Position numbers and translations under genes: made by a program. This document shows positions 53,041 through 60,914 of a DNA stretch of 64,000 bases, piece after piece; position 1 is the first letter of the stretch, and the number at the start of each line of letters is the position of its first letter. This DNA is from Ferrimicrobium sp. (GTDB taxonomy: Bacteria > Actinomycetota > Acidimicrobiia > Acidimicrobiales > Acidimicrobiaceae), in assembly GCF_027319265.1 (NCBI RefSeq), contig NZ_DAHVNP010000050.1:1-64000 (forward strand). Direction: 5' to 3'. The notes under the pieces were generated by a model, which was given only the letters and a program-made list of their open reading frames with translations, made no database searches and was not told the origin of the DNA.

Positions 53041-53171
53041 CAATTGACGATGGTCTCCCGTGCTAGCGTTCGTAGCATCCCTTCAGCAGTCCTGCCTCCG
53101 ACCCCTGTGGGTCCCCAACCAGCACGAACAGGTGGGCAAACGCCATAGCGCATCACACGACTGGCTCAATG

Positions 53172-54137
53172 ATGGCTGATCGTTCCTACCTCACGATTGC
53201 TCGCAACCCAGATCTCACCTCCGCGCTTGGCTATTTGATCATGATTCCAATCGATGGCGGCATGGTCGTCAAGACCTCCGGTACATGGCCACGCGAGAAG
53301 GCGCTGTACTGTCACCCAATACCGATCACCGACTGGCCGCTGGAGCCTGAGGTGGTCGAGGAGATCACCCTCCTCTCCTGTGCACGCCGGGGTGCAGCTA
53401 TCGATATCGTCGCGGACCGAGCAAGAGAAAATCGATCTCAATTGGTCTTTACCCACGCACGGGGGCGCGACATGATCTTCTGGCAATCACAGCGGACGCA
53501 ACGCCAAGCCAGACCTAAAGGCACGGTACCACGGGCTCGGGCTCATGGTGAGGTCGATGTGCCTATCACGGTGGACACCAGGGAGCGCTACCCCTATCAA
53601 TTTCGCAATCGATCAGTCAGCACCGAACGAGGTGCGCTGCCCTGTGGCGATTATGGCATTTACCTGGGCGATGACCTCTACGCAGCGGTCGAGCGCAAGA
53701 CACTCGAGGACCTCATCTCAAGCCTCTCCGACAACCGACTCCGCTACGCCATCGGTCAACTCGCCGCTCTCCCGCATGCGGCCATCGTCGTCGAAGCACG
53801 CTACTCTGCGATTCTCCAGTCCACTTATATGCGGCCTGCACTGATCTTCGATGCAGTCGCCGATTACGCTCTGCGTTGGCCCGAGGTGCCGGTCGTCTTC
53901 TGCGAAAATAGGAAGCTCGCAGAGGAATGGACCTATCGATACCTCACGTCTGCCTATCACCAGGCACTCAATGCACCCGTTGTCAGGCAAGAGACACCCC
54001 CTCCTCCCAATCCAACCTCAGCAAGCATCCGCCAATGGGCAAGCGAGCACCACATCGACATCGCCACCAAGGGTCGGATCCCACAGGTCGTACGCGAGCA
54101 GTATCTCCGGGCTCACGGACGATCAATCTCGCGGTAG
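53172..54137 (+). CDS. ERCC4-type nuclease with C-terminal Lsr2-like DNA-binding domain
   Basis: The protein (321-322 residues) has an N-terminal region of about 125 residues of unknown role and an ERCC4/XPF nuclease domain (about 130-265). Metal-binding and catalytic residues are D136 in ITVDTRERYPYQF and the ERK triad at 175-177 in YAAVERKTLEDLISSL. A C-terminal domain (about 284-317) has ASIRQWASEHHIDIATKGRIP, matching the Lsr2 DNA-binding domain with KGR in place of RGR, which targets A/T-rich minor grooves. The combination suggests structure-specific cleavage directed to A/T-rich, often foreign, DNA. An ATG at 53169 is an alternative start. Confidence 0.88.
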   Translation: MADRSYLTIARNPDLTSALGYLIMIPIDGGMVVKTSGTWPREKALYCHPIPITDWPLEPEVVEEITLLSCARRGAAIDIVADRARENRSQLVFTHARGRDMIFWQSQRTQRQARPKGTVPRARAHGEVDVPITVDTRERYPYQFRNRSVSTERGALPCGDYGIYLGDDLYAAVERKTLEDLISSLSDNRLRYAIGQLAALPHAAIVVEARYSAILQSTYMRPALIFDAVADYALRWPEVPVVFCENRKLAEEWTYRYLTSAYHQALNAPVVRQETPPPPNPTSASIRQWASEHHIDIATKGRIPQVVREQYLRAHGRSISR

Positions 54138-54246
54138 CCTGCCGTCCCGACGCGCCACACCGCTGATCGACGCTCAGTGTGCTCATCACGATCGCCTGCG
54201 GTCTGGCACTGCAGCAGCGAAACCATGATCGAGTAGAGTGGAACCA

Positions 54247-54321
54247 GTGACGCAGGGTGCTCGACGAAGTCGGGCTGAGAAAGACCTGTTGAACCTGATC
54301 TAGTTAGTACTAGCGGAGGGA
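54247..54321 (+). promoter_or_regulatory. TPP riboswitch (thi-box)
   Basis: The conserved blocks of the thiamine-pyrophosphate aptamer occur in order: GGGTGC (54255-54260), GGGCTGAGA (54272-54280), GAACCTGATCT (54291-54301), the CTAGTTAGTACTAG stem-loop (54300-54313) and GCGGAGGGA (54313-54321). The final block includes the Shine-Dalgarno sequence GGAGGG, with the ATG nine bases after it, so control is probably translational: TPP binding hides the ribosome site. Confidence 0.93.
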
Positions 54322-54329
54322 CGTCAGCT

Positions 54330-56243
54330 ATGACCAAAGAACCAGTTTTGTCGGTGTCGCCTATGCGGCGACTATTTTGCCGAAGTGTAGCCTTGCACTG
54401 GGGCAAGCATGCAGCTCACGATCGGGTCTCACACCCCAAGCCAAAGGGGATCGCAGCACCCGTCGGTATCGCATTGACGGCACTTTTGCTCGCGAGCTGT
54501 ACAAATTCACAACAGTCCCAAGTATCTGCTACCAGTGCGTCTGGTGGCGTTGCCTCCTATGCACTGGGTGCGGGGGACCAGTTCAGTTGGATCCTCCCAC
54601 TCGAGAACGAAGCCAACTACGAGAACTATGACTCCAACGTCTCCAACGGGCTCTATCGTCCGTTGTACTATGTCGGAGGAGCTGGCACGACCGGGATCAA
54701 CTATCCACTCTCGATCGGCACCGCTCCCGTCTACTCCCACGGCGACACGATGGTGACCATCGATCTCCACCACAACTACACCTGGTCGGATGGACAACCG
54801 GTCACAACAAAGGACATCAGGTTCTTCTTCGAACTCGAGGCTGCGGGAGCCAAGAATGGCGATTATGCCCCGTACCTACCTGGTCGCATGCCATCTGACA
54901 TCAAGAGCATCTCCTATCAGGGTCCCTACCAATTTACACTCCATCTCAACCACGCCTACAACCCAGTTTGGTTTACCGGCAACCAGCTGACCTGGATCTA
55001 CCCACTCCCGGTTCAGACCTGGGACAAGACTTGTCCTACCTGCCACGTCACCAACGTTGCCTCAACCCCGGCGGGTGCAACGAAGGTCATCGACTTCCTT
55101 TACAAGGAATCGGCTCAGCTCAGCACCTATGCCACTAATCCGCTCTGGAAGACGATCGACGGTCCCTGGGAGATAACCAGCTACAACCCCACGAACTACC
55201 ATGCAGTGTTTCGCGCCAATCCGCGCTACACCGGGGCTGGGAAACCCAAGCTGGCTGGCTATCAAATTTACTCATTTACTTCGGCGACGGCCGAACTCGA
55301 CGCGCTCCGCGGAGGTGTCATCGATTTTGGCTATCTACCGACATCGGATCTCGGGCTGACCCACTACTTCCAGTCTCATGGCTATGTAGTACAACCATGG
55401 AGAGTCTTTTACGATAACATTGCGGAACTAGGCTATACCGGCCCCTATCGCCACCTTGTCGCCCAGCTCTACCTCCGACAGGCGCTTCAACACCTGGTCG
55501 ACGAGCCCCTCTATCTGAAGGCTACTCTCCATGGGAACGGCATGCTCGACTATGGATCAGCGCCGATCTATCCGGGCTCGAACTACGTGAGTCCCCAGCT
55601 GCACCATGATCCCTATCCCTACTCAATCGCGGCTGCGCGGCTACTGCTAACGACACATGGATGGCAACTCTCGACCTCTGGCCCATCGACCTGCGTCAAC
55701 CCGGGGACTGGTAGCAACCAATGCGGTGCTGGCATCAAGAAAGGGGCGCCGCTTGTGATCTCGATGATGTATGCGACACCGAGCGCGAGCCTGACGGCCC
55801 AGGCCCAGGCCTTTGACAGCGCTGCTCGCGCCGCGGGCATCACCATTGAACTCAACCCGCAGCCCGAGGATACTATGTATTCCACAGCGGGAGTATGCCC
55901 TCCTGGACCATGCAACTGGGGCATTGCCCTCTACGGCGCCCAGGAGGACTTCGGACAGTACGTGCTTGTGCCAACGGCAGGAGTCGAGTTTGCAAAGGGG
56001 AACTATTGGGGCGGAGGGTACTACAACCCGACCGAGCAACGCCTGCTCAATGAGGCGTATGACCTTCCGGGACTCTCCCGCCTGTACGCAGTCGAGAACT
56101 ATCAAAGCCAACAGGTCGCAGGTCTGTGGTGGAGCGTCGGCGACTACGAGGTCGCCGTCGTGAACAAGCGCGTCACCGGATGGAACCCACTCAACCCGTA
56201 TGCCAACTACATGCCCTCGCGCTGGAGGCTTAGCGGCTCATAA
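54330..56243 (+). CDS. Family-5 extracellular solute-binding lipoprotein under TPP control
   Basis: The 637-residue protein is an oligopeptide/nickel-type (SBP_bac_5) binding protein. A long basic leader is followed by a hydrophobic stretch and lipobox LLASC (C57). The SBP_bac_5 fold shows VTIDLHHNYTWSDGQPVTTKD, then VIDFGYLPTSDLG and QLYLRQALQHLVDEP. It would capture a ligand outside the membrane and pass it to an ABC permease; no permease or ATPase gene is adjacent. The TPP riboswitch directly before it implies the ligand is thiamine, a phosphate ester or a precursor such as HMP. That inference is strong for regulation and weaker for the exact ligand. Confidence 0.85.
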   Translation: MTKEPVLSVSPMRRLFCRSVALHWGKHAAHDRVSHPKPKGIAAPVGIALTALLLASCTNSQQSQVSATSASGGVASYALGAGDQFSWILPLENEANYENYDSNVSNGLYRPLYYVGGAGTTGINYPLSIGTAPVYSHGDTMVTIDLHHNYTWSDGQPVTTKDIRFFFELEAAGAKNGDYAPYLPGRMPSDIKSISYQGPYQFTLHLNHAYNPVWFTGNQLTWIYPLPVQTWDKTCPTCHVTNVASTPAGATKVIDFLYKESAQLSTYATNPLWKTIDGPWEITSYNPTNYHAVFRANPRYTGAGKPKLAGYQIYSFTSATAELDALRGGVIDFGYLPTSDLGLTHYFQSHGYVVQPWRVFYDNIAELGYTGPYRHLVAQLYLRQALQHLVDEPLYLKATLHGNGMLDYGSAPIYPGSNYVSPQLHHDPYPYSIAAARLLLTTHGWQLSTSGPSTCVNPGTGSNQCGAGIKKGAPLVISMMYATPSASLTAQAQAFDSAARAAGITIELNPQPEDTMYSTAGVCPPGPCNWGIALYGAQEDFGQYVLVPTAGVEFAKGNYWGGGYYNPTEQRLLNEAYDLPGLSRLYAVENYQSQQVAGLWWSVGDYEVAVVNKRVTGWNPLNPYANYMPSRWRLSGS

Positions 56244-56339: not shown

Positions 56340-56924
56340 ATGGTCGACAGGATCGTCCGTGTTGTGCACGATCGGAACGTCGATCCTGTGAGCCGGACAA
56401 GCGAGGAGGAGTTTCGGTCCTTCTTTGATGAGAACCTGGATCGCATCATCGGGTACGCGTTCTCGATTGTCCAGAATACCCAGGAGGCCGAGGACATCGC
56501 CGTCGAGTCGCTGGCGCGCGCGTATGCTGCCTGGAGGCGCCTCAACGGAACCGATCATCGCAGGGCATGGGTGTTTCGGACAACCCTCAACCTGGGCATC
56601 GACCATCTTCGAAGACAGAAAAGATCCAAGACCATGCCTGGAATCGACGCGGCCTTTGCCGAGATCCCGCTGGGATCGGCGGCAGCGATCCTCGACACCA
56701 CCGGCGACTTGGCTACGAATCGTGCGGAGCTCGTTGTGGCACTGCGACGGCTACCCGAGCGCCAACGCGAGGCGGTAGCCATGCATTACCTTGGCGGCTT
56801 TGCCGTCGCCGAGATCGCCGAGGTCATGGGCATTGGAACCGAGACCGCAAAGACTCACTTGGCTCGCGGAATGAAGGTCTTACGAACGGAGTTCGGCGTC
56901 CAAAACCGAGGAGGAGAATCATGA
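56340..56924 (+). CDS. ECF sigma factor
   Basis: The 194-residue protein has sigma region 2 (about 22-92, FFDENLDRIIGYAFSIVQNT, then AEDIAVESLARAYAAW and RAWVFRTTLNLGIDHLRR) and region 4 (about 130-185, LPERQREAVAMHYLGGFAVAEI and TETAKTHLARGMKVLR). It recruits RNA polymerase to stress promoters. Its stop overlaps the ATG of the following membrane protein (ATGA), an arrangement typical for ECF sigma and its anti-sigma. A frame on the same DNA to 58117 begins earlier but in another phase and is not used upstream of 56921. Confidence 0.9.
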   Translation: MVDRIVRVVHDRNVDPVSRTSEEEFRSFFDENLDRIIGYAFSIVQNTQEAEDIAVESLARAYAAWRRLNGTDHRRAWVFRTTLNLGIDHLRRQKRSKTMPGIDAAFAEIPLGSAAAILDTTGDLATNRAELVVALRRLPERQREAVAMHYLGGFAVAEIAEVMGIGTETAKTHLARGMKVLRTEFGVQNRGGES

Positions 56925-59446: not shown

Positions 59447-60703
59447 CTAGGCGCTCACAGCATGCGTCTCGAATGCATCCAAAAAAGAACGAATCATAAT
59501 CAACGCTGCAGCACCTTCTCCAACCGCAGAGGCAATCTGCTTGGTGGAGCCAAGACGAACATCACCGGCGGCAAAGACTCCAGGCATCGAGGTCTCCATG
59601 GCTGATCTGGTGATGACGAACCCTGCCTTATCGAGCTCAACGTGGTCACGGAGGAACTCTGAGTTGGGAGTAAGACCGATGAAGACGAAGGCTCCCGCAG
59701 CAAGAATTCGCTCCTCCCCATTGCCCTCATCGATCACCACCGCACTGAGATGGTGATCATCTCCCGCCTCGAAGGCTCGCACCTTCACCCCAGTATGTAC
59801 TGCAAACTTCGGATCGGCCGCGATACGTTCCTGCAGCAACGTCGAGGCACCGAGGCGATCGCGGGCCTCCAGAATCGTCACCTGGTCGACAAATTGTGAC
59901 AGGAAGAGTGACTCCTCGAGAGCTGAGTTACCTCCACCAATCACCACCAAGTTTTTAGCGCCACGGTAAAACGGACCATCACAGGTGGCACAAAAGTGGA
60001 CTCCGGCCCCGATTAGGTCACTCTCGCCAGGGACCTCCAAACGTCGATAGGTAGATCCTGACGCGATGAGCACCGCCTTCGCACGATAGCTCTGACCACC
60101 ATCCACCGCTATCAGGAGCTCGCTGCCAGTTCGCGTAATACCAGAGACCGCCACTCCTTGAAGCATCTCAACACCGTAGCGCTTCGCATGAGCGACATAG
60201 AGTGAAGCGAGCTCCTCTCCGCTCACACCATCAGGGAAACCTGGATAGTTATCGACCCGCTCCGTTGCACCAGCCTGCCCACCAAGCGCCCCACGATCCA
60301 AGATCAGGGTAGCAATACCTTCACGGGCGGCGTAAATACCGGCGGTGAGGCCGGTTGGCCCACCACCGATGATCACCAAATCATAGAAGCTGCGCTCGCC
60401 TTGGATCCTAAGCCCCAGCAGCTGAGCGATCTCGGCATTCGACGGTTCAATGAGCTCCTGCCCGTCAGGAAAGACGACCAACGGAATGATGAGTTTGCCC
60501 TCCGATGCATCCTCAACTCGGCGGCGACCATCCTCGTCCTCTTCGACGTTGATCGAACGAAAAGGAATGCGTTGATCCTGGAGAAATTGCTTGGTCCGCT
60601 TGCAGTCTGGACACCAGTTTGCTCCGTAAACCTCCACCATGTCAAGGTTGTGTCGTGTTGAGTCCTCCGACGCAGCGTCCACATTCTTTCCTCCGCTCTC
60701 CAT
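59447..60703 (-). CDS. Glutaredoxin/mycoredoxin-thioredoxin reductase fusion
   Basis: The 418-residue protein starts at ATG 60703, after a perfect AAGGAGG site. Residues 20-100 form a glutaredoxin-like domain with CPDC (31-34) in VEVYGANWCPDCKRTKQFL. From about 105 it is a thioredoxin reductase: FAD motif VIIGGGPTGLTAGIYAARE, redox CATC (238-241) in HFCATCDGPFYRG, NADPH motif VVIGGGNSALEE (253-264) and a terminal FAD block PGVFAAGDVR. In actinobacteria mycoredoxins pair with mycothiol; here the reductase could reduce the fused domain directly. An iron-oxidising or acidophilic lifestyle would favour such a redox system, but that is inference. Confidence 0.93.
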   Translation of the reverse strand: MESGGKNVDAASEDSTRHNLDMVEVYGANWCPDCKRTKQFLQDQRIPFRSINVEEDEDGRRRVEDASEGKLIIPLVVFPDGQELIEPSNAEIAQLLGLRIQGERSFYDLVIIGGGPTGLTAGIYAAREGIATLILDRGALGGQAGATERVDNYPGFPDGVSGEELASLYVAHAKRYGVEMLQGVAVSGITRTGSELLIAVDGGQSYRAKAVLIASGSTYRRLEVPGESDLIGAGVHFCATCDGPFYRGAKNLVVIGGGNSALEESLFLSQFVDQVTILEARDRLGASTLLQERIAADPKFAVHTGVKVRAFEAGDDHHLSAVVIDEGNGEERILAAGAFVFIGLTPNSEFLRDHVELDKAGFVITRSAMETSMPGVFAAGDVRLGSTKQIASAVGEGAAALIMIRSFLDAFETHAVSA

Positions 60704-60914
60704 CGCTACCTCCTTGGTGTTTACCATCTAACCCGTTGCAACGAGCACCTATTCCTCACGACCTCCACTGCCCATGCGGTACCCAATCGAGCGAGTGACT
60801 ACCTCGCACAAAACGCCCAGGCCCGAGGGTACCAGACGACACCACTATCCCAGACACCAACGCGAGAGCAAGCTAGCACCGTATCATCCCTTCGCGCACA
60901 CTGGGAGCTCGGCT

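Follow-up and report, generated by a model that had tools for sequence, protein, structure and literature searches.

A TPP riboswitch directly upstream of an orphan SBP_bac_5 lipoprotein gene, a candidate for vitamin B1 scavenging in Ferrimicrobium

Thiamine auxotrophy is widespread, and the proteins responsible for uptake are often not known. Here, we describe a TPP riboswitch that directly precedes the gene of a solute-binding lipoprotein of the SBP_bac_5 family, located in a stretch of 64,000 nt (referred to as the window). In what appears to be an auxotrophic genus, the whole TPP regulon consists of a single gene of a family not linked to thiamine, and purifying one protein would be enough to test the candidate. 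We consider it probable that this lipoprotein was recruited for vitamin B1 scavenging: its synthesis would be switched by TPP, it would capture thiamine monophosphate (TMP) or thiamine for a peptide-type permease encoded elsewhere, and ThiL would complete the route. The proposal builds on what could be established directly, namely the riboswitch, the gene, their conservation, the missing biosynthesis genes, the retained ThiL and the paralogy of the binding protein, from which we infer how the riboswitch acts and which ligand and permease are involved. If correct, the case would illustrate that an orphan binding protein placed under a riboswitch can confer an additional specificity on a general peptide-type importer.

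The riboswitch and the gene behind it

Within the window, the TPP riboswitch is the sole Rfam match. Using cmscan, it aligns with the full length of RF00059 (model positions 1-105) at 72.1 bits against a gathering score of 54.3 (E 3.1e-12), in line with the complete aptamer that an earlier note on this DNA had read from the letters alone. The optional P3a stem is absent, a short-P3 form which is common to this aptamer and the thiM leaders of related genera; apart from this shared short P3, riboswitch sequence identity does not discriminate between a thiM-type and a thiC-type ancestry of the leader. Across 11 leaders, helices P1-P5 are 92.6% paired, compared to 27-49% for slid controls, and changes on both sides are present in all four aptamer helices. 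Minimum free energy folding of the leader is no better than that of shuffles (z 0.21); as this measure is uninformative for such an aptamer, the case rests on the covariance score and the pair counts. The positions of the relevant features are summarized in Table 1.

Table 1. Features of the riboswitch-controlled locus, in window coordinates.
Feature	Position	Strand	Basis
TPP riboswitch aptamer (THI element), short-P3 form	54243-54338	+	RF00059, 72.1 bits; one in genome; kept in genus
Shine-Dalgarno GGAGG within the aptamer	54315-54319	+	GAGG is the P4 3' strand; cmscan alignment and sequence
P1 3' strand CGUCA, between Shine-Dalgarno and ATG	54322-54326	+	cmscan alignment
SBP_bac_5 (cluster C, oligopeptide/nickel type) solute-binding lipoprotein, 637 aa, single-gene unit	54330-56243	+	PF00496, 108.8 bits
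Codons Q538-E539-D540, clade-specific pocket-loop change	55941-55949	+	Alignment; profile alignment to OppA

As the earlier note had proposed, the last block of the aptamer holds the ribosome site of the following gene, whose start codon even falls inside the stretch matched by RF00059. Since the 3' strand of P4 is the Shine-Dalgarno sequence and that of P1 fills the gap to the ATG, the aptamer is by itself able to mask the ribosome site. At high intracellular concentrations, TPP would bind the aptamer, stabilize P1 and P4 and thereby hide the Shine-Dalgarno sequence, so that the binding protein is not made; at low TPP, the leader would open and the protein would be made.

The 637-aa product matches PF00496, its only Pfam family, far above the cut-off of 32.4 bits, and it carries a lipobox (LLLASC) whose Cys57 is invariant in an alignment of six sequences and nearly invariant among 30, which agrees with its first description as an SBP_bac_5 lipoprotein. 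With 33.1 bits against an NCBIfam cut-off of 393 the protein does not qualify as NikA, and membership of the ThiB family finds no support either, the E. coli ThiB query remaining without a match in the genus and the window protein matching PF00496 only.

Neither in the window nor in any orthologous locus long enough to show it does a permease or ATPase gene lie next to the binding-protein gene, which extends what had been noted for the window alone. A complete Opp/Dpp-type operon is likewise absent: no cognate OppBC or OppDF accompanies the gene, and all sufficiently long orthologous loci have convergent or unrelated neighbours. Several paralogues also lack OppBC and OppDF in their own operon. 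In the genus, the upstream neighbour is an ERCC4/Lsr2-type gene and the downstream neighbour a convergent gene for a FUSC-type membrane protein, which follows directly in three genomes (G003, G005, G006); a sigma factor gene at 56340 was considered as co-transcribed partner and rejected in view of this convergent gene. The upstream gene of the window (53169-54137, +) joins an ERCC4 nuclease-like domain to an Lsr2-type DNA-binding C-terminus and is found upstream of the riboswitch in five orthologous loci. Elsewhere in the window (59447-60727, -), a glutaredoxin/mycoredoxin domain is fused to a thioredoxin-reductase-like protein.

The genome from which the window derives (2.88 Mb) contains only this one TPP riboswitch. 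Comparison of homologous loci, which the earlier note had suggested, revealed the same pair across the genus: each of the six other genomes has exactly one TPP riboswitch, directly before an orthologue that is 78-94% identical to the window protein. A more distant contig, L047, also carries the pair (riboswitch at 66.8 bits; protein identity 61% overall and 66% in the best segment) among entirely different neighbours. Of the two findings named beforehand as speaking against the proposal, a covariance score below threshold and close homologues that lack the riboswitch and bind peptides, neither turned up: the score is well above threshold, and the close homologues keep the riboswitch. At the locus of L048, a 49% homologue, no riboswitch is present. 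In the protein tree, one branch (89/80 support; 92% of bootstrap trees) separates the eight distinct riboswitch-linked proteins from the others. Identity in the aptamer core is 91-100%, compared to mostly 0.58-0.67 for the upstream spacer and the gene start, the exception being the closest genome (G004, 0.81 and 0.87), and this difference indicates that the leader is under selection.

One could argue that the riboswitch once belonged to a thiC or thiM operon, now deleted, and that it lies before an unrelated gene by mere chance, given that sister genera carry the riboswitch before thiC or thiM, genes which the genus of the window has lost. The conserved core between flanks that are mostly only about 60-65% identical, the recurrence of the same gene behind the riboswitch in the L047 lineage with other neighbours, and a Shine-Dalgarno sequence of the binding-protein gene that is part of the aptamer make this explanation exceedingly improbable.

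Thiamine metabolism and the predicted ligand

The analysis of thiamine metabolism in the genus covered seven genomes; completeness is 95-98% for six of them, and several are metagenome-assembled drafts. None of the enzymes ThiC, ThiE, ThiG, ThiD and ThiM was found in any of the seven. By comparison, among the 16 genomes of sister genera in the family that were searched, ThiG and ThiD are present in all 16, ThiC also in 16 (one of them having no more than a fragment with a stop) and ThiE in 15, while ThiM is rare; where these genomes have a TPP riboswitch, it precedes thiC or thiM. Although the absences stem partly from drafts, assembly gaps are an unlikely cause, since seven genomes and five enzymes agree. 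ThiL (TMP kinase), in contrast to the missing enzymes, scores above its cut-off in 7/7 genomes, and thiamine pyrophosphokinase (TPK) was not found anywhere in the family genomes searched. As the genome of the window encodes the TPP enzyme MenD, TPP is needed. Judged by gene content, the genus thus appears to be thiamine-auxotrophic. The L047 genome gave no match for ThiC, ThiE, ThiG, ThiD or TPK, compared to four in a control genome. ThiC, ThiE, ThiG and ThiD were also not found in the genome of L048, the homologue without the riboswitch at its locus, so that loss of the pathway is not unique to carriers of the riboswitch-linked gene.

Two further observations concern thiamine-related proteins of the genus. 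A weak match to ThiK occurs in the genome of the window, such matches being found in prototrophic relatives as well, and four of the seven genomes encode an NCS1-type permease with about 27% identity to a CytX-like protein, outside TPP control. The search for thiamine transporters covered ThiB and CytX-like proteins. Among the relatives, one family member (G007) has no TPP riboswitch and only the ThiC fragment with a stop, ThiE, ThiG and ThiD being present, which may reflect either a requirement for HMP or a gap in the assembly. Outside this family but within the order (L068, L075, L076, L067, L070), TPP riboswitches lie before genes which by eye look like TPK, ThiB-like and CytX-like genes. 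A SAM-IV riboswitch (L046, 10122-10233, -, 50.7 bits) is located near two genes resembling methionine-synthesis genes.

A cell without these pathway enzymes has no use for HMP or thiazole alcohol and depends on importing thiamine, TMP or TPP. Precursors are the cargo of many known TPP-controlled transporters, and uptake of HMP or thiazole alcohol, joined to thiamine within the cell, has to be considered for the binding protein as well. PMC3766115 groups TPP-controlled transporters as thiamin and precursor transporters. As ThiD, ThiE, ThiM and ThiG were found in none of the seven genomes, HMP and HET would be unusable, which renders precursor uptake highly improbable and leaves an intact vitamer, TMP or thiamine, as predicted ligand. 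Of the thiamine-type uptake originally proposed, the vitamin part is hence strengthened by the genus-wide loss of ThiC, ThiE, ThiG, ThiD and ThiM, while HMP, then listed among the candidate ligands, has become very unlikely in the absence of ThiD and ThiE. Moreover, a binding-protein gene under TPP control in a genome in which no thiamine-synthesis genes were found is the context expected for a thiamine-binding ABC component.

The binding protein would most likely capture TMP or thiamine, and ThiL would turn TMP into TPP. Retention of ThiL implies that TMP arises inside the cell, and its retention without a pyrophosphokinase points to TMP, for which dedicated importers are little known. We tentatively put forward the protein as the founding member of a TMP route: a binding protein of the oligopeptide family, duplicated and changed in its pocket, would feed TMP to a peptide permease that it shares, and ThiL would be the only enzyme needed to finish TPP synthesis in a genus without the rest of the pathway. 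Within the scavenging proposal, uptake of TPP itself, or of thiamine followed by the action of a thiamine kinase, is a possibility that we regard as somewhat doubtful. Thiamine, TMP and TPP are all ligands of E. coli ThiB, and the weak ThiK-like protein could be taken as a hint of such a kinase; however, ThiK-like matches occur in prototrophic relatives too, and ThiL, kept in 7/7 genomes, would be dispensable if TPP alone were imported.

Paralogues, candidate permease and ligand pocket

The genome contains six OppC matches but 12 matches to SBP_bac_5, including a pair that probably represents a single split gene; several binding proteins must thus do without a permease of their own. The nearest paralogue of the window protein (58-60% identical) adjoins an aldehyde dehydrogenase gene; in the assembly of the window, this paralogue is apparently cut by the ends of contigs C18 and C38 (L119, 16175-16855, and L118, 328-1269). 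The next paralogue (49-51% identical) belongs to a system of OppB, OppC, an FAD oxidoreductase and a fused OppDF ATPase, which is intact in G013 and split, with its parts close together, in the genus of the window. Loci of this type were seen in L156 (10660-17861), L112, L162 and L161. The riboswitch-linked gene is a duplicate of the binding-protein gene of this system, and it is plausible that its product shares the OppBC-OppDF permease of the 49-51% paralogue, the best candidate to which the captured vitamer would be passed. The oxidoreductase of the system is closest to aminophosphonate and pipecolate oxidases, with scores below the cut-offs, and the system itself probably serves an amine.

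By sequence, a profile of 30 relatives matches the structures of OppA, AppA and NikA. A phmmer search of the window protein against solved structures gave no match, and a structure predicted from six sequences was too poor to use (mean pLDDT 37). In the profile alignment, Asp540 corresponds to Asp419 of OppA, the residue to which the amino end of the peptide is bound. One residue before this position, Trp is found in every aligned paralogue that has a letter there, L048 (Ala) excepted; all eight riboswitch-linked proteins have Glu539 in place of this Trp. Asp540 itself is shared with the sister paralogue next to the aldehyde dehydrogenase gene. The acidic pair Glu539/Asp540 would suit a cationic vitamer, which is only suggestive.

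These data also bear on whether the protein takes up a peptide or an amine, as its paralogues presumably do, with TPP control being indirect, for instance because the substrate is a source of amino acids or cysteine, or a degradation product signalling vitamin-rich debris. Membership of the oligopeptide/nickel family, the retained Asp540 and the aldehyde dehydrogenase, FAD amine-type oxidase and amidohydrolase genes adjoining the paralogues would fit such a role. Yet in this genus, which appears to be auxotrophic, no other gene follows a TPP riboswitch, the pocket loop of the protein is unlike that of all aligned paralogues, and we know of no link between TPP and peptide uptake. Uptake of a peptide or amine is hence unlikely, and vitamer capture remains the preferred reading.

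Relation to known systems

The ligands known for cluster C members are peptides, nickel complexes, haem, opines and sugars, and to our knowledge no SBP_bac_5 member has been described under TPP control or as binding thiamine. In line with this, the literature searched did not describe any SBP_bac_5 protein linked to a TPP riboswitch and, judged by titles and abstracts, contained nothing relevant on thiamine in Ferrimicrobium. In PMC3766115, 564 TPP sites were surveyed and their targets sorted into biosynthesis and transporter genes; the word oligopeptide does not occur in its main text.

The closest functional parallel is provided by ThiB-ThiP-ThiQ (and ThiXYZ), in which the surface binding protein of an importer is likewise TPP-controlled and the cells require the vitamin; within the same order, G051 has a TPP riboswitch before a protein that looks like ThiB. 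ThiB, however, belongs to another binding-protein family, of which the E. coli query detected no relative in the genomes of the family studied here, and the window gene stands alone, without permease and ATPase genes. With the cluster C proteins OppA, AppA, DppA and NikA the window protein shares the Pfam family, and its profile matches the structures of three of them, whereas its pocket loop reads QED instead of containing the Trp of the paralogues. The thiC and thiM leaders of the same family have the same aptamer in the same position directly before the start codon, with the same Shine-Dalgarno overlap, but they control enzymes of biosynthesis or salvage, while the leader in the window controls a binding protein. 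The OppB-OppC-FAD oxidoreductase-OppDF system, finally, contains a 49-51% identical binding protein, yet includes permease and ATPase genes of its own and lacks a TPP riboswitch. Taken together, the mode of control and its purpose are already known, whereas the protein family is new to thiamine as far as the literature searched shows.
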